DNA of 34,855 nucleotides from Thelephora terrestris (Eukaryota > Basidiomycota > Agaricomycetes > Thelephorales > Thelephoraceae): assembly GCA_015956445.1 (NCBI GenBank), contig WIUZ02000043.1, positions 1 to 34,855 on the forward strand, written 5' to 3'. Positions within the stretch are counted from its first letter, which is position 1. Every line of letters starts with the position of its first letter. Below the pieces are notes generated by a model, which did no database searches, was not told the origin of the DNA, and worked only from the letters and a program-made list of their open reading frames with translations. Positions 14,232 through 34,855 of the stretch are shown here, one piece after another. Made by a program: the position numbers and the translations under genes.

Positions 14232-14800
14232 CTTGAATGAGGGGGTGAACGGCGATGAACCAGCAGGAGATAAAAAGATTAAATATGACAAAACTATATC
14301 AGTGGGATGGGGCGGTAAGCCCGGGAACCAAAACCGTTGAACGAATGCCATGACGGTAATGGTAAAGCGGGACTCGGGCGATCCGAGGTGGTGATGATCG
14401 ATAACCGCTACCGCTGCGGTTGAACATCCACTAAGCCGAATATATTGGAGTGGGATAAACAAAGGGTGAACGGGTTCATCTAGATAGATGAAATTTATTA
14501 GTACCGGCATGAAAATGGTAGTTTGGACAAAGAGAAAATGAGTAAAAAATATGACAAAATAAACATATGATGAAACAAACATATGACGAAAATAACATAT
14601 GACGAATTATATGTTGAAAATAACATAGAGTAAACTGAAGTCTGCTGATTTCACAACATTTTAAGTCACTCTACTTGTTGTGAGTCACAACAGGCTGTTG
14701 AGAGCCATCACAGGCTGCTGCAGGCCGTTGCAAGCGGTTATGGGCTGTCATTAGTTATCATGAACTGCTGCAGGCATTCATCAACAGTTTTGAGCCGTTG
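14232..14800. other. Upstream region of the 13395-14231 gene, AT-rich
   Basis: No supported gene. From about 14490 to 14640 it is AT-rich, with repeated CATATGA motifs. It grades into degenerate GAGCCGTTGC-like units (14690-14800) that precede the perfect 20-bp array. Confidence 0.4.
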
Positions 14801-15090
14801 CGAGCTACGTCTGGCCGTTGCGAGCTACGTCTGGCCGTTGCGAGCTACGTCTGGCCGTTGCGAGCTACGTCTGGCCGTTGCGAGCTACGTCTGGCCGTTG
14901 CGAGCTACGTCTGGCCGTTGCGAGCTACGTCTGGCCGTTGCGAGCTACGTCTGGCCGTTGCGAGCTACGTCTGGCCGTTGCGAGCTACGTCTGGCCGTTG
15001 CGAGCTACGTCTGGCCGTTGCGAGCTACGTCTGGCCGTTGCGAGCTACGTCTGGCCGTTGCGAGCTACGGCTGGCCGTTGAGAGCTACTG
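14801..15090. repeat. 20-bp minisatellite, about 14 copies
   Basis: The unit GAGCTACGTCTGGCCGTTGC is repeated in tandem. The first 13 copies are identical, the 14th has one change (CGG for CGT) and a partial copy follows. Decayed precursor-like units lie just upstream (about 14690-14800). Because 20 is not a multiple of 3, all three forward frames are open; I regard these as chance open frames. The uniformity points to recent expansion or strong homogenisation. Confidence 0.95.
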
Positions 15091-15404: not shown

Positions 15405-18400
15405 CTAAATCAGAATGTCATGGTAGGTGATATTTGTTGTTGTTGTTTGACCATCAGGGAGTAACACCACCAGGGCATTGCGATGCCTTACCCTGGAAAG
15501 TGCGGTGTACAGTTGACCATGTGTAAAAACTGGTCGAGTTAGATCAATTCCAACATAGTCAAGTGTTAGGCCCTGACAGCTGTGGAAGGTTGAGGCATAT
15601 GCGGGAGCAAGAGGAAACTGCTTGCGAAGGAGGGTATGACCAGAAGGTAGTGTATCCTTGAATGTAATACGTGGTAAGAGTATATCTCCATGATCTGAGA
15701 ATGATATATTGCCAACTGATTTGAGGAGGTGGACAGTGATGAGCTTTTGCCCAATACCAGTAACAACTACCCGGGTATTCTTGACCAAACCACGATCAAT
15801 TGAAAGGTTCCGGAGGAGCCGATAAACACCACCAAGCTTGATAAGTAATGTATAATCTGGCATTCCCTTTGGTCGGACCTTAGAGACATAATCTAAGATA
15901 GCATCTGGAGTTGGGAGAATATCACTTTCAGATTCATCAGAGACATTGGTATGCTCTTCAAGCGAGTCAGCAGCACAGAAGAGTTTCAGGCTGCCTGGAA
16001 GGAGGTTTAGAATGGCTGAATTGTAGGTGTCAACTTGTGCATTTGTGGGGGCAAGAATACATCGCCGCAAACAGAGAGTGGGATTGCTGATAATGTTTTG
16101 TGGGAAGACAGAATTGATAATGTCAAGTGTACATTTGGCATGCTGCAACCCTTGGAATGAGATCTCTGGCCCACCTCCATCACCAATTGCATCAACAAAA
16201 GCAGCAAAGGGGGGATCCTCTGCATTTCGAATAGGAGTGATAAGGTGGTTGATTGTGAAGTTTGGCCAAGTAGTAGAACGTGAAATGCTTGCATCAATGA
16301 CTTCAGCTTTGGTACCCTTGCGAATAACAGGGCATGTTTGACGGAAGTCACCCAGTAAAACAACCACTTTTCCACCAAATGGCAAAGCACATTGCATAAT
16401 CCGACGGCAGGTTTCATCAACACAGGCAAGTACTGCACGGTTGGCCATAGGAGCCTCATCCCAGATGATAAGGCTGGATTGGCGAATGAGTGCTGCACGT
16501 GAATCAGTTGGAGAGATTGGAGACTCTAGCATCTCACTCCGCTCATTCACAGGGACCTAGGTCAAAAGATATTATTTATATGTATTAAGCAGAAGTGTGG
16601 TTATCCATACCTTAAATGTAGAGTGAGTTGTCCGCCCCCCAGGGTACAGTTGTGCTGCAAATGCTGAAGTTGCAGTTGCAAGGACAATCTTTTCATGACC
16701 CCGCACTTGGGAACAGAGTGCATTCACCAAGTAGGTTTTTCCACGGCCGGCCTTTCCATCAATGTAGAGGCACAGAGGTTTATTGTCCTGGATAGCATTC
16801 CAGACAATATCAAATATCCCCCTTTGTTCAGAGTTGAATGACATCACTGCTTCTTCTGCTGCAAAGAGGAGCTGAGGGATATCTGATGACCACCTCTGAA
16901 TTTCTGCTATAACTTCATTTCCAATGTAGGTAGGTTGAGGGAGGCCATAGTCTCGAGGCTCTTTTCCATACTCTCGCAGACGCCCTGCAATTTCCAGGAG
17001 TGCACTTGAAAAAGCAAGGCTCCAATTACCACCGTTTGAAACATGAAAGTCCTCAGATAACGGTTGTTGGAATTTTTCCCATATAGCAAGTGGTGTAGTA
17101 ATACACTCATTAGTGAGCATGTGGATGAGGAGGAGGCGCATTTGGTGAGGAGTGTGTAAAGACTCAACAGCTTCTGTAAAACAGTATTCTGCTTCTGTTT
17201 CATCAGAAAATAGATTGAGTGCAACACAGGCTCCTTGGAAAGACGGGTAGAGAGTTCCATTGACTGTGCGGAGATCTTCGAAGGAGCGTGCAGGCTGGGT
17301 CTGAAGCAAGACTCTGAGGTAAAAAACATCACCAAACAATAATCGAACTGGTTGGAGGCGGGTAATATGTGGATTACTGTGGTGGCGAAGAATGACATGC
17401 ATAGTGGGGACATTTGGTGGAGGGTTCTTTTCCAAGAAGTATTGAGATTGGCCATTTGCTTTTGTGGGATCATATGATTGGAGGCGGAAGAGCTGAAAGT
17501 ATTCAGAATAACGAAGATCTGAAAAATGCTGAATTGTCCCATCAATTTGAAATGTGCCATCAGGGCGAAGAAAGTATCTTTCAAGAGCAGAGAGTGATCC
17601 AACTTGTTTGTGGGTAGAGTATCTCCGGTTGTGGATTGGGTTTGGTAGGTGAACAGGTAGTGATGTGACAGCTGGAGATTTCTTTGAAATACTGAATCCA
17701 AGAATTCTCCAGGTAGCTTCAGAGGCAGAATGGTAGCGGCCATTCCAGTATTCTTCAATTTCATCAATCTGATCATTCTCTGTCTGGGCTGAGATACGAA
17801 AATATGCACGATCTGGACCTGAGACATATGGTTAATAATGTTCTATATTCAAATATGTATCATACCTTTGTGAATATATTTGAATAGATATTGGAATAAC
17901 TGGCCAGAACCCCCAATTTCCATGTTCATATGGCATTTGAACTTTCGCAAGAGAGGAAGGCAGTGTGGGACAATATTTTGATCTGATGGCTGGCATCGTA
18001 GATATTGGACCCGGCCACTCTCAGTAAATGTTGTTTGTGGTATTATGGGCTTTGGATATCCAAAACGACATATGCGTGCGTTGTTCACCCAACGCTCACA
18101 GTACCTGAGTGGGTGATCACTGTCAGGGGGAATATGGTTGATAATACCAGGAGGGTGGGATTGATGGACCATGAATTTCAGAACCAATGCAGAGTCAGCA
18201 GGATCAGCTGGGAGTGTGGCTGATATAACCTGATTGATATGTTCAGGAAGAAGACAATCCTGTGCATACTTCAGCAAGATATGTGCATGTGGTAAGCCAC
18301 GCTTTTGAAATTCAATTGAAGTAATTGAATAAATCAAGCGCCCTGCATTAGGAAACATTGTGCGAAGGGCTGTCATTAGCTTTGAAAGTTTTTGCTTGAA

Positions 18401-19570
18401 GACACGGCATACAACTACTGGGATGTCTGTGAAGTTCTGTCCTGGTAATAACTGTGACTGAATTTCAGGCCAATCACTATTGCATGTAAAGGTAAGGAAA
18501 AAGGTAGGGGGTCCATAGGCAGCCGCAATGGCAAGAGAGTCAGCTATCTGATTTGAAACCCATCTCCGAGATCCAAGGAAGGATGCAGGGAGGTAGATAT
18601 TTTCTGACTCTTCAACTGTCTCTTCAGCCATTAATGCAGCATCATGCTCCAAGGATCGTAAACGTGACTGGTTGGAACGAATATATCTGAGCCTGCATTC
18701 AAGCTCACGTGTAAACATATCAACAACATATTCATTTGTGAGCCTGCCAAAGATATGGAAGCGGAACTCGCGAAGAAGGCGTGCTCGATATAACCAGATC
18801 TGTGTTGTAGGAGCATCAAAATCACTACTGTTGTATTGGTGTGTAGAATCTCCCACTGAGCCTATCAAACCCCAACCAAGGGTTCCTGAAGGGAAGAAGA
18901 GAGGATATGCAAGTGGCTCCCAGAGGCGGCTGATAGTTGGTATATACTGATCTTGGCCGTGCTGCTGAGATACAACTAAGCATCGAGGAGAGATGTCAGA
19001 AAGCACAGTATTATCATAACACATGATAGCTGCGATTTCTGATGTGCCCGTATCACGAATTATAACACTTGCATCTGAGAAGTTGTTGGGATCCTGAATT
19101 TGGAGGTCATGGAGAAAGGAGAGTGACTGTGTCAATGGATTGACTCGCAAAAAGCACTCGCGGAGGAGAGTTATCCAAAGTGGCGGGATAGAATTATCAC
19201 TATGGGGAGCAGCTGAAGGGTCAAATCCATCATACAGAAGCCAACGAACAGCAGAGTTTGAGTTGGAGCTACTCCGCACTCTATGGTATATCCGCCCGGA
19301 AATTGCAACAAATGATGGGTTGCCAGGAGTTGGAAAAGCATGTGATGACTCCAATGCAGCAAAGGAGAAGATAAGGTTTAACCGGCGTGAGAGGCGAGAG
19401 ATGTTTGGATCATTGATAAGAACATCATACTCAGGTGGAAGAGGAGGGAGAGATGGTATAAGAAAATACCGGTTGCCATTTGGGCCACAGCAGAAACCCG
19501 GTTTTTCACCAGTCAGAAGAAGAATACCACAGAATTTGCATGAGCGAACAGTGTTGCGGTTATTGACCAC
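15405..19570 (-). CDS. Helitron Rep/PIF1-like helicase transposase
   Basis: This is the rolling-circle transposase of a Helitron: an HUH-type Rep nuclease fused to a PIF1-family helicase. Exon 1 is 19570-17866, exon 2 17818-16611 and exon 3 16556-15405. The introns (47 and 54 bases, GTATGA...CTCAG and GTATGG...CCTAG) restore YIHKGPDRA and HSTFKVPVNER exactly. The spliced frame has 1355 codons with no stop. Motifs in order: an N-terminal Cys-rich segment (CKFCG, FCC); Rep motif HAHIL; the two-tyrosine motif YLFKYIHKG; helicase Walker [17 protein letters not shown]; Walker [19 protein letters not shown]; and the C-terminal [12 protein letters not shown]. No in-frame ATG lies at the N-terminus. 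The frame is open upstream only to a stop near 19630, so the true start is probably in an unidentified upstream exon (candidate acceptor TATTAG near 19634). All key motifs are present, so the element may be active or recently active. Confidence 0.92.
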
Positions 19571-26998: not shown

Positions 26999-27759
26999 CG
27001 CCGACAAGCGGCAAGGCCCACGACTCGTATCCCTGGCTGATGGAAAGCGAATTGGTCGTGCTCGGATTTCGGACTCAGGATTTCAATATTTGGCTACAGT
27101 TTGAGCACAATGGGTGACTATGCGTCGGACTTAGTCACCCGTCGGACTAGATTAGAGTAGGAATATATATACTTATCGCAGAAGGGTGCCAGTTGCCGGG
27201 TTTTGCGGTGTTCCTGAGCCTACGGAGCGGTCGGGGTCCTGACACTGATTGACAGTTCCCTTAAATGACCTCAGAAATTCATCTGGATTCAAGTGTACAC
27301 CGTGTAAATCCTACGGACAGTGACCCAATATTGATTCCGCTTACCCACACGTCTCTCAATTGTAGTGAAGTAGACTAGCTGTTCAACGTTCGACGTGATT
27401 CCATCACAGGAATGGCTGGTACTTTGACCTCACCATTGGAAACCTTCCTTTCATACACCAAACTGCTCCCCTACTCTTTGGTTACGCCCTCTCCAACTGC
27501 CCAGTCTGGATGGACAAGGTCATCGCCGGGGTTTTTGTCGATTTACTGTCATAACTACTTCCAAGATCATCCACGATAACGACCTTCCAAAAGGATCCTT
27601 GTGGTCGTCGGTCAGGGCACGTCCATCCTCAAGGAGATCAAGCAGATGGAGTGTGAGATGTGTCCTACCTGGAGTGCCAGCTGAACGTTGAGCCCAACGC
27701 GCCCGAGCAGTCAGGTCCAATGGTCCAGAGGGACTTCAAGGATCCTAGTCCCGAGCCCC
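26999..27759. other. Left flank of the giant inverted repeat
   Basis: No supported gene. Short open frames only. It contains AATGGTCCAGAGGGACTTCA at 27719, which recurs in a near copy beyond the right end of the element (34440). Confidence 0.4.
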
Positions 27760-27944
27760 TTCAGCTATCTTTTCTCCATGGGTCATGGACCATACATCGT
27801 GACAATTCTCCATGGGTCATGGGCCATGCAACGTTGTACAACGCGTTGTACAACCCATGACCCATGGAAAAAAGATACCATTGTACAACCCATGACCCAT
27901 GGGTAATGGAATAGTATCCGTTGCCCATGCCCCATGGGTTGTAC
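27760..27944 (+). repeat. Left outer boundary block of the fold-back element
   Basis: About 185 bp matching 34192-34376 in inverted orientation with few differences. It contains two copies of GTTGTACAAC separated by GC (27833-27854), forming one continuous palindrome. It also holds monomer-like units in reversed orientation (27855-27900) that flip near 27905, a nested palindrome at the element's edge. Confidence 0.85.
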
Positions 27945-29930
27945 AATGGTATCTGTTGCCCATGCCCCATGGGTTGTACAACACTATCTGTTCCCCATGG
28001 GGCATGGATTGTACAACGCTATCTGTTCCCCATGCCTCATGGGTTGTACAACGCTATCCATTCTCCATGGGGCATGGGTTGTACAACCCTATTCATTCTC
28101 CATGGGGCATGGGTTGTACAACGCTATCCTTTCTCCATGGGGCATGGGTTGTACAACGCTATCCATTTCCCATGGGTCATGGATTGTACAACGCTATCCA
28201 TTTCCCATGGGACATGGATTGTACAACACTATCCGTTCCCCATGCCTCATGGGTTGTACAACACTATCTGATTCCCATGCCTCATGGGTTGTACAACACT
28301 ATCCATTCTCCATGGGTCATGGGTTGTACAATGCTATCCATTTCCCATGCCCCATGGGTTGTACAACACTATCCATTTCCCATGCCCCATGGGTTGTACA
28401 ACACTATCCTTTCCCCATGGGGCATGGGTTGTACAACACTACCCATTCTCCATGCCCCATGGGTTGTACAACGCTATCCATTTCCCATGCCCCATGGGTT
28501 GTACAACACTATCTGTTCCCCATGGGTCATGGGTTGTACAACACTATCTGATTCCCATGCCTCATGGGTTGTACAACACTATCCATTTCCCATGGGTCAT
28601 GGGTTGTACAACGCTATCTGATTCCCATGCCTCATGGGTTGTACAACACTATCCATTTCCCATGGGTCATGGGTTGTACAACGCTATCTGATTCCCATGC
28701 CTCATGGGTTGTACAACACTATCTGATTCCCATGGGGCATGGGTTGTACAACACTATCCATTCCCCATGGGGCATGGGTTGTACAACGCTATCCTTTCTC
28801 CATGGGGCATGGGTTGTACAACGCTATCCATTTCCCATGGGTCATGGGTTGTACAACGCTATCCATTTCCCATGCCCCATGGGTTGTACAACACTATCTG
28901 TTCCCCATGGGTCATGGGTTGTACAACACTATCTGTTCCCCATGGGTCATGGGTTGTACAACACTATCTGATTCCCATGCCTCATGGGTTGTACAACACT
29001 ATCCATTTCCCATGGGTCATGGGTTGTACAACGCTATCTGATTCCCATGCCTCATGGGTTGTACAACACTATCTGATTCCCATGGGGCATGGGTTGTACA
29101 ACACTATCCATTCCCCATGGGACATGGGTTGTACAACACTATCTGTTCCCCATGGGTCATGGGTTGTACAACACTATCTGATTCCCATGCCTCATGGGTT
29201 GTACAACGCTATCCATTTCCCATGGGTCATGGGTTGTACAACGCTATCCATTTCCCATGCCCCATGGGTTGTACAACACTATCTGTTCCCCATGGGTCAT
29301 GGGTTGTACAACACTATCTGTTCCCCATGGGTCATGGGTTGTACAACACTATCTGATTCCCATGCCCCATGGGTTGTACAACACTATCCATTCCCCATGG
29401 GGCATGGGTTGTACAACACTATCCATTTCCCATGCCCCATGGGTTGTACAACACTATCTGTTCCCCATGGGACATGGATTGTACAACGCTATCCGTTCCC
29501 CATGCCTCATGGGTTGTACAACGCTATCCATTTCCCTTGCCCCATGGGTTGTACAACACTATCCATTTCCCATGGGGCATGGGTTGTACAACACTATCCT
29601 TTCCCCATGGGGCATGGGTTGTACAACACTACCCATTCTCCATGCCCCATGGGTTGTACAACACTATCCAATTCCCATGCCCCATGGGTTGTACAACGCT
29701 ATCCATTCCCCATGGAGCATGGGTTGTACAACACTATCCATTTCCCATGGGTCATGGGTTGTACAACACTATCTATTTCCCATGCCCCATGGGTTGTACA
29801 AAGCTATCCGTTCCCCATGGGTCATGGGTTGTACAACGCTATCCATTCCCCATGCCCCATGGGTTGTACATCACTATCCAATTCCCATGCACCATGGGTT
29901 GTACAACAGCATCTTGTGCCCATGGGGCAT
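27945..29930 (+). repeat. Left 35-bp tandem array, about 56 copies
   Basis: Each monomer has, in order, the dyad CCCATG-NNN-CATGGG, the palindrome GTTGTACAAC and a linker of the form RCTATCYRTTY. Length is very constant at 35 bases. NNN is mostly GGT, CCC, CCT or GGG. The array shows higher-order blocks, for example a ten-monomer offset (start points 28704 and 29054). All three plus-strand frames are open and read the same rotated peptide (GCTTLSISHG...). I regard these as non-coding satellite sequence. Confidence 0.95.
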
Positions 29931-30567
29931 CAGTTGCAGAATGGTGTCCTTTCTCCATGTCCCATGGATTATATCACTATTCCAGGAAAGGAGATACTTT
30001 ATAAATCAACCATTAGCTGTGTGAATTTGAAAAAATTAGACTCTGTTTGTATGCATGATAGACCATACATCAGTTTGTGGCTCTAACCTAATGGAAACTA
30101 AACTTAACCTGATAATAGCCACAACCTAATCCTCAATCTAACCTGAGCCAATGTAAACTTGAGCCATGAACCTAAGCCTAACCTAATCCTAAACCTGGTC
30201 TAATCCCAAATCTAACCCTAACCTGACCTAACCTAACCTAACCTAACCTAACCTAACCTATACCTAAACCAACCTATACCTATACTAACCTATACCTAAC
30301 CTAACCTGGTATGGGCAAACCTAACCTACCTATCATGACCTGTTTCAGCCTAATGTCATGTATGCCAGCCAAGACTAACTTCACCCAGTTGCAAACATAT
30401 GACTTGGGTCACAGGACCATAAAGCAAACTGCAGTCCCCTCACTCTGTGCCCAACCATCCCATAAGCCCACAGATGCACAAATATATCATCAGCAACCCA
30501 GCATCATGCTTATCACCCATGTTCAACCACAAACCACTCTCACCCTTTGTTCTGTGCTATCTCAAAG
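29931..30567 (+). repeat. Left inner block with degenerate CCTAA repeats
   Basis: Pairs with 30700-31336 with no length change (paired positions sum to 61267) and only a few base differences, for example at 29972/31295 and 30230/31037. From about 30060 to 30330 it is a degenerate CCTAA/CCTATA array. The remainder is unique sequence with no convincing gene. Confidence 0.9.
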
Positions 30568-30699
30568 CCTAACCAAAACTCTAGCTCACCCACCCATATT
30601 AATCCTTGTGTGGAATATGTTATAAGTCTATAAACCATATGTTTGTAGGCCACTTGCTTGTGGGCCCAAGGAGGTGGATGAACTTGAGTTGTGGTTTGT
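30568..30699. other. Unpaired spacer at the centre of the inverted repeat
   Basis: About 132 bp where the two arms stop matching. The left side reads GCCTAACCAAAACTCTAGC and the right side GGCCCAAGGAGGTGGATGAA; there is no symmetry. It would be the loop of a folded transcript or extruded cruciform. Confidence 0.8.
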
Positions 30700-31336
30700 C
30701 TGTGAGATGGCACAGAACAAAGGGTGAGAGTGGTTTGTGGTTGAACATGGGTGATAAGCATGATGCTGGGTTGCTGATGATATATTTGTGCATCTGTGGG
30801 CTTATGGGATGGTTGGGCACAGAGTGAGGGGACTGCAGTTTGCTTTATGGTCCTGTGACCCAAGTCATATGTTTGCAACTGGGTGAAGTTAGTCTTGGCT
30901 GGCATACATGACATTAGGCTGAAACAGGTCATGATAGGTAGGTTAGGTTTGCCCATACCAGGTTAGGTTAGGTATAGGTTAGTATAGGTATAGGTTGGTT
31001 TAGGTATAGGTTAGGTTAGGTTAGGTTAGGTTAGGTCAGGTCAGGTTAGGGTTAGATTTGGGATTAGACCAGGTTTAGGATTAGGTTAGGCTTAGGTTCA
31101 TGGCTCAAGTTTACATTGGCTCAGGTTAGATTGAGGATTAGGTTGTGGCTATTATCAGGTTAAGTTTAGTTTCCATTAGGTTAGAGCCACAAACTGATAT
31201 ATGGTCTATCATGCATACAAACAGAGTCTAATTTTTTCAAATTCACACAGCTAATGGTTGATTTATAAAGTATCTCCTTTCCTGGAATAGTGATGTAATC
31301 CATGGGACATGGAGAAAGGACACCATTCTGCAACTG
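30700..31336 (-). repeat. Right inner block with degenerate TTAGG repeats
   Basis: Inverted copy of 29931-30567. The telomere-like array appears as TTAGG/TATAGG (about 30940-31200). Total number of pentamers equals that of the left block, with one TTAGG/TCAGG difference in the perfect run. Confidence 0.9.
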
Positions 31337-34191
31337 ATGCCCCATGGGCACAAGATGCTGTTGTACAACCCATGGTGCATGGGAATTGGATAGTGATGTA
31401 CAACCCATGGGGCATGGGAATTGGATAGCATTGTACAACCCATGGGGCATGGGAATTGGATAGCATTGTACAACCCATGGGGCATGGGAAATAGATAGTG
31501 TTGTACAACCCATGCACCATGGAGAATGGATAGTGTTGTACAACCCATGGGGCATGGGAATCAGATAGCGTTGTACAACCCATGGGGCATGGGAATTGGA
31601 TAGTGTTGTACAACCCATGCCCCATGGGGAATGGATAGTGTTGTACAACCCATGCCCCATGGGGAATGGATAGTGTTGTACAACCCATGGGGCATGGGAA
31701 TCAGATAGTGTTGTACAACCCATGACCCATGGGAATCAGATAGCGTTGTACAACCCATGACCCATGGGAAATGGATAGTGTTGTACAACCCATGAGGCAT
31801 GGGAATCAGATAGTGTTGTACAACCCATGAGGCATGGGGAATGGATAGCGTTGTACAATCCATGTCCCATGGGGAACAGATAGTGTTGTACAACCCATGG
31901 GGCATGGGAAATGGATAGCGTTGTACAACCCATGGGGCATGGGAATTGGATAGTGTTGTACAACCCATGACCCATGGGGAACAGATAGTGTTGTACAACC
32001 CATGACCCATGGGGAACAGATAGTGTTGTACAACCCATGGGGCATGGGAAATGGATAGCGTTGTACAACCCATGGGGCATGGGAATTGGATAGTGTTGTA
32101 CAACCCATGCCCCATGGGGAATGGATAGTGTTGTACAACCCATGCCCCATGGGGAATGGATAGTGTTGTACAACCCATGGTGCATGGGAATTGGATAGTG
32201 ATGTACAACCCATGGGGCATGGGAATTGGATAGCATTGTACAACCCATGGGGCATGGGAATTGGATAGCATTGTACAACCCATGGGGCATGGGAAATAGA
32301 TAGTGTTGTACAACCCATGCACCATGGAGAATGGATAGTGTTGTACAACCCATGGGGCATGGGAATCAGATAGCGTTGTACAACCCATGGGGCATGGGAA
32401 TTGGATAGTGTTGTACAACCCATGCCCCATGGGGAATGGATAGTGTTGTACAACCCATGCCCCATGGGGAATGGATAGTGTTGTACAACCCATGGGCATG
32501 GGAATCAGATAGTGTTGTACAACCCATGACCCATGGGAATCAGATAGCGTTGTACAACCCATGACCCATGGGAAATGGATAGTGTTGTACAACCCATGAG
32601 GCATGGGAATCAGATAGTGTTGTACAACCCATGAGGCATGGGGAATGGATAGCGTTGTACAATCCATGTCCCATGGGGAACAGATAGTGTTGTACAACCC
32701 ATGGGGCATGGGAAATGGATAGCGTTGTACAACCCATGGGGCATGGGAATTGGATAGTGTTGTACACCCATGACCCATGGGGAACAGATAGTGTTGTACA
32801 ACCCATGACCCATGGGGAACAGATAGTGTTGTACAACCCATGGGGCATGGGAAATGGATAGCGTTGTACAACCCATGACCCATGGGAAATGGATAGTGTT
32901 GTACAACCCATGCCCCATGGAGAATGGATAGCGTTGTACAACCCATGGGGCATGGGAATTGGATAGCATTGTACAACCCATGGGGCATGGGAATTGGATA
33001 GTGTTGTACAACCCATGACCCATGGGAAACAGATAGTGTTGTACAACCCATGCCCCATGGGGAAAGGATAGTGTTGTACAACCCATGCCCCATGGGAAAC
33101 GGATAGTTGTACAACCCATGGGGCATGGGAAACAGATAGCATTGTACAACCCATGACCCATGGGGAACAGATAGTGTTGTACAACCCATGACCCATGGGG
33201 AACAGATAGTGTTGTACAACCCATGGGGCATGGGAAATGGATAGCGTTGTACAACCCATGACCCATGGGAAATGGATAGTGTTGTACAACCCATGCCCCA
33301 TGGAGAATGGATAGCGTTGTACAACCCATGGGGCATGGGAATTGGATAGCATTGTACAACCCATGGGGCATGGGAATTGGATAGTGTTGTACAACCCATG
33401 ACCCATGGGAAACAGATAGTGTTGTACAACCCATGCCCCATGGGGAAAGGATAGTGTTGTACAACCCATGCCCCATGGGAAACGGATAGTTGTACAACCC
33501 ATGGGGCATGGGAAACAGATAGCATTGTACAACCCATGACCCATGGGGAACAGATAGTGTTGTACAACCCATGACCCATGGGAAACAGATAGTGTTGTAC
33601 AACCCATGAGGCATGGGGAACAGATAGTGTTGTACAACCCATGCCCCATGGAGAAAGGATAGCGTTGTACAACCCATGCCCCATGGAGAATGAATAGGGT
33701 TGTACAACCCATGACCCATGGGGAACGGATAGTGTTGTACAACCCATGACCCATGGGGAATGGATAGCGTTGTACAACCCATGGGGCATGGGAATTGGAT
33801 AGCGTTGTACAACCCATGCCCCATGGAGAATGGATAGCGTTGTACAACCCATGACCCATGGGGAACAGATAGTGTTGTACAACCCATGGGGCATGGGAAT
33901 TGGATAGGGTTGTACAACCCATGACCCATGGGAACTGGATAGTGTTGTACAACCCATGCCCCATGGAGAATGGATAGTGTTGTACAACCCATGCCCCATG
34001 GAGAAAGGATAGCATTGTACAACCCATGACCCATGGGGAACGGATAGCGTTGTACAACCCATGGGGCATGGGAATTGGATAGTGTTGTACAACCCATGCC
34101 CCATGGGGAAAGGATAGCATTGTACAACCCATGAGGCATGGGGAAGGGATAGTGTTGTACAACCCATGGGGCATGGGCAACAGATACCATT
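31337..34191 (-). repeat. Right 35-bp tandem array, about 83 copies
   Basis: Same monomer as the left array on the other strand, but about 27 more copies and a different order of variants. Two higher-order duplications are visible: about 804 bp offset (marker ATCCATGTCCCATGG at 31859 and 32663) and 383 bp offset (marker GGATAGTTGTAC at 33101 and 33484, a monomer lacking two bases). Single-base losses at about 32490 and 32765 do not close the minus-strand frames. Confidence 0.95.
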
Positions 34192-34376
34192 GTACAACCC
34201 ATGGGGCATGGGCAACGGATACTATTCCATTACCCATGGGTCATGGGTTGTACAATGGTATCTTTTCTCCATGGGTCATGGGTTGTACAACACGTTGTAC
34301 AACATTGCATGGCCCATGACCCATGGAGAATTGTCACGATGTATGGTCCATGACCCATGGAGAAAAGATAGCTGAA
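34192..34376 (-). repeat. Right outer boundary block of the fold-back element
   Basis: Inverted copy of 27760-27944. Differences include CG in the left block replaced by TG (read on the same strand) inside the double GTTGTACAAC motif and in the neighbouring CAACG/CAATG. Confidence 0.85.
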
Positions 34377-34855
34377 CCCTGTGTAGTCCCTACTTGGGGA
34401 CTTTGTCTGGTTTGTTCGCTCACCCAAGGAGCTCAAATGAATGGTCCGGAGGGATCTTCAAATGCCCCAGTGCCTACCCGGCTCACAGTACACTACCGAC
34501 AGCTTCACCTGGTGTCTTTGCGCACCCGAAATGGATCACATGTAGCCTCCGAATGCCCATTCCATCCTCCGGTTGCAGCGCACCCCCCTCCCCACCACCG
34601 AAAACCTCTATACCAGAGAAGCCACAAAGAACATCAGTTATCTCCCGCTCTGCCCCAACAGAACTTTTGCAATACCTGGCAACAATGTCTTCCCACCATA
34701 CCACCACGTTGATACAGGCAGATTGTCTTCGTCAAGCGGCTCGGCCCACCCTAAGCTCCATGCTCGATTGGACAGGAAGTGTTCCTTGCCTCAGGCATCG
34801 AACGATTGCCACTTGCTTGTTCACTTGTACACAGGGAATCGGGCCACCACCTTTG
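34377..34855. other. Right flank of the fold-back element, no supported gene
   Basis: Open frames on both strands (34323-34712 plus, 34483-34707 minus) lack recognisable features and one starts inside the repeat. A near copy of the left-flank motif, AATGGTCCGGAGGGATCTTC, is at 34440. A gene running off the window's end cannot be excluded. Confidence 0.35.

Follow-up and report, generated by a model that had tools for sequence, protein, structure and literature searches.

A palindromic element in Thelephora terrestris, one copy of a large foldback-type family with asymmetric end heptamers and 7-bp target duplications

The 34,855-bp stretch of Thelephora terrestris DNA considered here (the window), which is the entire contig WIUZ02000043.1 (C38 in a genome of 40.6 Mb and 60 contigs; assembly GCA_015956445.1), contains a 6631-bp palindromic element that, upon comparison of copies, spans positions 27753-34383 and lies between perfect TAGTCCC repeats. 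This element is very probably a non-autonomous foldback-type DNA transposon that is moved in trans and that represents one copy of a large family. The Foldback-like layout ascribed to the element in an earlier note on this DNA is right as a description of architecture. The term does not name a phylogenetic family, and such architecture is known from animals and plants.

The layered arms described in the earlier note (an outer block, a 35-bp satellite and an inner block, arranged about a small centre) could all be mapped (Table 1). The inverted arms at positions 28773-30594 and 30673-32494, each of 1822 nt and 93% complementary in an ungapped comparison, are separated by a spacer of 78 nt. Two traits by which foldback-type elements are recognized were found, namely long inverted arms that make up the bulk of the element and arm-internal tandem repeats of varying number, with the window copy carrying 58 units of the 35-bp satellite in its left arm and 82 in its right arm. 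The inner arms, of some 655 bp, are 98.3% identical, while the CCATGNNNCATGG box occurs 147 times within the element and nowhere else in the window. A 6.6-kb inverted repeat with defined, mirror-image outer ends had been claimed. The repeat is real, and the blocks lying inside the outermost 7 bp do mirror each other, with three differences across 200 bp. The outermost 7 bp are, however, asymmetric and hence no part of the inverted repeat, such that the true ends (27753 and 34383) each lie 7 bp beyond the earlier call. In the inward direction, the two ends read GAGCCCC-TTCAGCTATC and CACAGGG-TTCAGCTATC. These outer heptamers are not inverted repeats of each other, with six of seven positions differing in all 19 fully read copies of subfamily A (see below). 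In other copies, symmetry between the blocks that follow the ends is lower, with 1-128 differences per 200 positions in an ungapped comparison. Copies with perfect target duplications carry one GAGCCC and one CACAGG end.

Genome-wide, a 22-bp end motif yielded 149 matches at up to three mismatches, as compared to none for a control pattern. Patterns specific for each end type yielded 91 matches for the C-type (CACAGG) end (control, 1) and 100 for the G-type (GAGCCC) end (control, 19). After 5 of the 91 and 8 of the 100 were dropped as chance-like variants, 86 C-type and 92 G-type ends were used. When an element was defined as two ends of opposite type, from the same subfamily and within 25 kb of each other, 74 paired elements were obtained, corresponding to 48 copies of subfamily A (including the window copy), 22 of subfamily B and 4 of subfamily C, with 30 ends remaining unpaired. 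The search for further copies with the same ends, as called for in the earlier note, thus returned dozens, and the refuting outcome named there, absence of any second such copy, did not occur. The end sequences are common to all three subfamilies, and the CCATGNNNCATGG box was found in subfamily A, in two stretches of subfamily B and in one copy of subfamily C, these being the copies counted. The satellite units of subfamily B differ in containing CGTACG and GGCGCC palindromes in place of TTGTACAA, and one subfamily C copy (L059) contains a short array of 35-bp units. Copies of subfamily A have a median length of 4.45 kb, with the shortest (L051; 459 bp) lacking the inner block and still presenting a perfect duplication. 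Together, paired ends enclose 368 kb, or approximately 0.9% of the genome, with nested elements being counted twice. Nearest-first pairing took buried ends in L054 and L056, so that these lengths are understated, and the copies on contigs C15 and C24 (L081 and L087), apparently a single insertion in a duplicated region, were counted as two.

Dispersed copies sharing the same ends and flanked by target duplications, a third trait of foldback-type elements, were likewise found. In 46 copies for which both flanks were read, the 7-bp target duplication is perfect in 39, contains one mismatch in four, is shifted by 2 nt in one and is missing from two. By subfamily, perfect duplications were seen in 28 of 32 A copies (two with one mismatch, two with none), in 9 of 11 B copies (one with one mismatch, one shifted by 2 nt) and in 2 of 3 C copies (one with one mismatch). 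The target duplications that the earlier note proposed seeking are thus present, including TAGTCCC on both sides of the window copy. No target consensus was evident across 19 sites. Using 18 joined-flank queries, paralogous unoccupied sites containing a single 7-mer were identified for four A insertions (L045, L046, L049 and L055); junction matches for L043 and L054 corresponded to their own flanks and were not counted. The empty site of L046 lies in a subfamily B satellite array, and of the two alignments shown for L055, one is gapped at the junction and the other (L003) is clean. For the window copy, the joined flanks returned only a diverged, rearranged match (contig C34; 69-76%) and no clean empty site. 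With dozens of copies, mostly perfect duplications and four unoccupied sites, the claim of a mobile unit rather than random satellite holds.

Coding capacity was considered in the 19 fully read A copies, the A copies at C3:1089954, C12:2795298, C12:2147932, C10:198559 and C58:1459026 (the longest) lying outside this set. These 19 contain 32 non-satellite frames of at least 100 codons, most of which correspond to one inner-arm frame of 101-140 codons that often occurs in both arms. The recurrent frame gave no Pfam match over the cut-off. Moreover, when diverged copies are compared, silent changes occur about as often per available site as do those that replace an amino acid (pS 0.074 vs. pN 0.074 in L044; 0.075 vs. 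0.106 in L049), pointing to no purifying selection. As such, the inner-arm frame was rejected as a gene and is read as non-coding. In the window, this frame is found at positions 30540-30956 (- strand; 138 aa) and in the mirror arm, and it is open in many copies. Since no transposase-like frame was detected in the 19 copies, where L049 frames of 125 and 230 codons fell outside the Pfam search, the elements are read as non-autonomous. Long copies of subfamilies B and C were read whole on contigs C18 (L064) and C60 (L061 and L063), across the interior on C8 (L065) and in part on C58 (L066). Much of their extra length reflects nested insertions, namely a 2.3-kb TGTCA..TGACA unit and other palindromes, and no Pfam match was returned for four open reading frames from L061 and L064.

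A partner encoding the transposase was sought elsewhere in the genome, where domain matches numbered 125 for KDZ (as opposed to none in 14 control genomes), two for MULE, three for hAT (dimerisation domain) and none for the P-type RNase H model PF21787. Once the 125 KDZ rows were reduced to one per place, 64 places could be checked (59 KDZ, two MULE and three hAT), of which five are found no more than 12 kb from a paired element, the nearest KDZ place being 2.7 kb from C59:827682-834227. As none of the 64, including the three hAT matches, lies in a paired copy, the family is most likely moved in trans. A Kyakuja-type (KDZ) element is tentatively favored as the most likely single source of the transposase, because Kyakuja is reported to generate duplications of exactly 7 bp and lacks terminal inverted repeats, and because KDZ domains are abundant here, MULE and hAT few and PF21787 matches absent. 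KDZ elements have been described from Basidiomycota, and Kyakuja, from Agaricomycotina, resembles the present family in its 7-bp duplications, in having very ends without terminal inverted repeats and in a CA start shared by one end (PMC12730594). Kyakuja differs in that its termini are CA..TG (PMC12730594), while the family described here has GA..TG termini, long sub-terminal inverted arms and no coding capacity found.

Alternatively, a Mutator-like (MULE/Phantom) transposase could move the same kind of element, in the way proposed for Tm1, a member of the Mutator/Foldback family in the nematode Meloidogyne. In its described layout, Tm1 is much alike, with asymmetric 7-bp terminal motifs beyond the inverted repeat, arms of short tandem repeats in variable number, mostly non-autonomous members, no clear target consensus and one copy with an identical motif at both ends and no duplication (PMC3169594), and the T. 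terrestris genome does hold two MULE domains. However, neither is contained in a paired copy or found in the 12 kb around one, and Tm1 duplications measure 8-10 bp, mostly 9 (PMC3169594), and not the 7 bp seen here. Tm1 units are, moreover, of about 14 bp and one Tm1 member codes for a MULE transposase (PMC3169594), whereas the present family has satellite units of 35 bp or other kinds, kilobase arms, a shared inner block and no coding member found. A MULE source is accordingly considered unlikely. Movement by a P-superfamily transposase, as with Drosophila Galileo, is rated as highly improbable. Galileo likewise is foldback-like, has long, internally repetitive arms and 7-bp duplications, and includes chimeric copies between non-matching 7-mers (PMC3573991). 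For Galileo, a P transposase is known (PMC3573991); here, the single P-type model tried, PF21787, gave no matches in the genome, a weak argument in that the control genomes also gave none.

Two further explanations have next to no standing. That the element is a structural chromosome locus, as the earlier note had allowed, or ordinary, non-mobile satellite turned palindromic would be in line with arms composed of satellite arrays and an AACCT-rich tract in the inner arms, yet is dismissed because copies are dispersed in their dozens, their ends are precise to the base, and both target duplications and unoccupied paralogous sites were observed. An assembly artefact, in which the contig end is folded back on itself, is brought to mind by a small contig with the element close to its right end, but is just as hard to credit, given arms that are not identical (98.3% for the inner arms, with unequal satellite numbers), target duplications flanking the window element and equivalents inside large contigs; indeed, the 74 paired copies are spread over 23 contigs, many megabase-sized, and so cannot be an artefact of one contig. 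The possible generation of double-stranded RNA from the arms, also raised earlier, is compatible with the transposon reading.

In the mechanism proposed, the terminal region, with its CCATGNNNCATGG boxes and TTCAGCTA..TTTT, would be recognized by a DDE-type transposase supplied from another genomic locus, which would join a single GAGCCC end to a single CACAGG end in a pair and insert the element using a stagger of 7 bp. The satellite units could undergo unequal exchange, such that arms grow or shrink and element lengths range between 459 bp and several kb, and exchange between both arms of one element could flip the centre. It is possible, albeit doubtful, that a Kyakuja-type KDZ transposase moves the family and that the heptamers amount to a left-right pairing rule, with only a G-end together with a C-end being productive. 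If so, the pairing rule would maintain a defined polarity in a palindrome with otherwise interchangeable arms, and heterotypic heptamers would, in view of the like layout of Tm1, constitute a general way of moving giant palindromes.

Several points speak against various parts of this proposal. Because element pairing admitted only G-C end pairs, pairing alone cannot prove the asymmetry rule, and 12 C-ends and 18 G-ends were left without partners. The copies L052 and C18:89772-93154 lack duplications, although L052 presents C-type sequences at both ends, a combination to be expected of a recombinant. The finding that none of the 64 KDZ, MULE or hAT places lies inside a paired element also means that no autonomous partner was found among them, and two KDZ copies that were compared (L067 and L068) offered no usable ends. 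L068 belongs to a longer duplication shared with contig C19. The KDZ assignment draws on two lines of evidence only, duplication length and abundance, and Kyakuja termini are CA..TG, while one end here begins with GA. Finally, the arm bases that distinguish the two sides adjoin the centre and move with it; since the diagnostic bases adjoin the centre used for sorting the copies, they do not provide independent evidence of flipping.

Centre orientation is split 12 to 4 among 16 copies, with exchange between arms being the simplest reading of a flipped centre. Within an element, inner-arm identity is 98.57% (14 core A copies), while the best match to other elements reaches up to 99.9%. As the inner arms of different A elements often match each other as well as, or better than, the partner arm, the copies appear to be related by recent spread. 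L054 contains three terminal blocks in a row within an arm, including two 807-bp units that are 100% identical, and only the outermost block fits the duplication. The tandem 807-bp units, at L054 4122-6543, end in a buried terminal heptamer and possibly represent a record of arm growth.

A non-autonomous foldback element with tandem-repeat arms and for which the autonomous partner was not found is also described in Drosophila virilis, namely Tetris, which differs in its units of ~220 bp, 8-10-bp duplications and three complete copies (PMC4079207). Among the open-access literature matches listed, a scope that leaves aside subscription papers and Repbase, no fungal family of foldback or palindromic elements is described; one paper among them applies the word 'foldback' to hairpins of RNA in the passages shown. 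Foldback architecture and asymmetric heptamers are already known; a fungal family uniting them with duplications of 7 bp, satellite arms of kilobase length and a division into three subfamilies was not met in those matches. Fly foldback elements have been linked to chromosome inversions in the case of Galileo (PMC3573991) and to new satellite DNA in the case of Tetris (PMC4079207). With three subfamilies sharing ends and occupying such a share of the genome, the role of the heptamers, the growth of satellite arms and the tolerance of a genome for multi-kilobase palindromes become testable.

Table 1. Features of the window copy and its flanks (window positions).
Feature	Position	Strand
Left 7-bp target site duplication, TAGTCCC	27746..27752	.
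Asymmetric terminal heptamer GAGCCCC (G-type end), beyond the inverted repeat	27753..27759	+
Left terminal block; inverted counterpart at right end, 3 mismatches/200 bp	27760..27959	+
Left satellite arm, 35-bp unit x 58; consensus with CCATGNNNCATGG box and TTGTACAA palindrome	27889..29924	+
Left inner arm, non-satellite	29940..30594	+
AACCT-rich degenerate simple repeat within left inner arm	30169..30307	+
Unpaired centre, 78 nt; either orientation relative to ends among copies	30595..30672	.
Right inner arm, inverted 29940-30594, 98.3% identity	30673..31327	-
AGGTT-rich repeat mirroring 30169-30307	30960..31098	-
Right satellite arm, 35-bp unit x 82	31359..34221	-
Right terminal block	34177..34376	-
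Asymmetric terminal heptamer, CACAGGG read inwards (C-type end)	34377..34383	-
Right 7-bp target site duplication, TAGTCCC	34384..34390	.

Other elements were encountered in the course of this analysis. A second type of palindromic element, with ends CACTGGGGGCA.., is found at L067 4727-5566, L061 1927-2887 and L065 6480-7845. The L067 copy is missing from the matching place in L068 and is associated with a 3-bp duplication (GGA); these features suggest a CACTA-like foldback element. The 2.3-kb TGTCA..TGACA unit, seen with 5-bp duplications at L064 7173-9502 and L066 410-2659 and lying near the ends of one B and one C element, looks like a solo LTR (long terminal repeat). It contains a frame of 208-214 aa that is open in three copies, and related sequence occurs in L065. 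Because the unit has duplications of its own (ATACG and ATGAC), it was rejected as a part of the arms. A 4.1-kb palindrome, 98% self-complementary, lies within a B element at L064 2764-6839. Elsewhere in the window, Helitron-type gene pieces on the - strand (15405-19570) match Helitron_like_N and PIF1 helicase, and a 20-bp minisatellite of 14.8 copies with 99% matches occupies positions 14794-15088.

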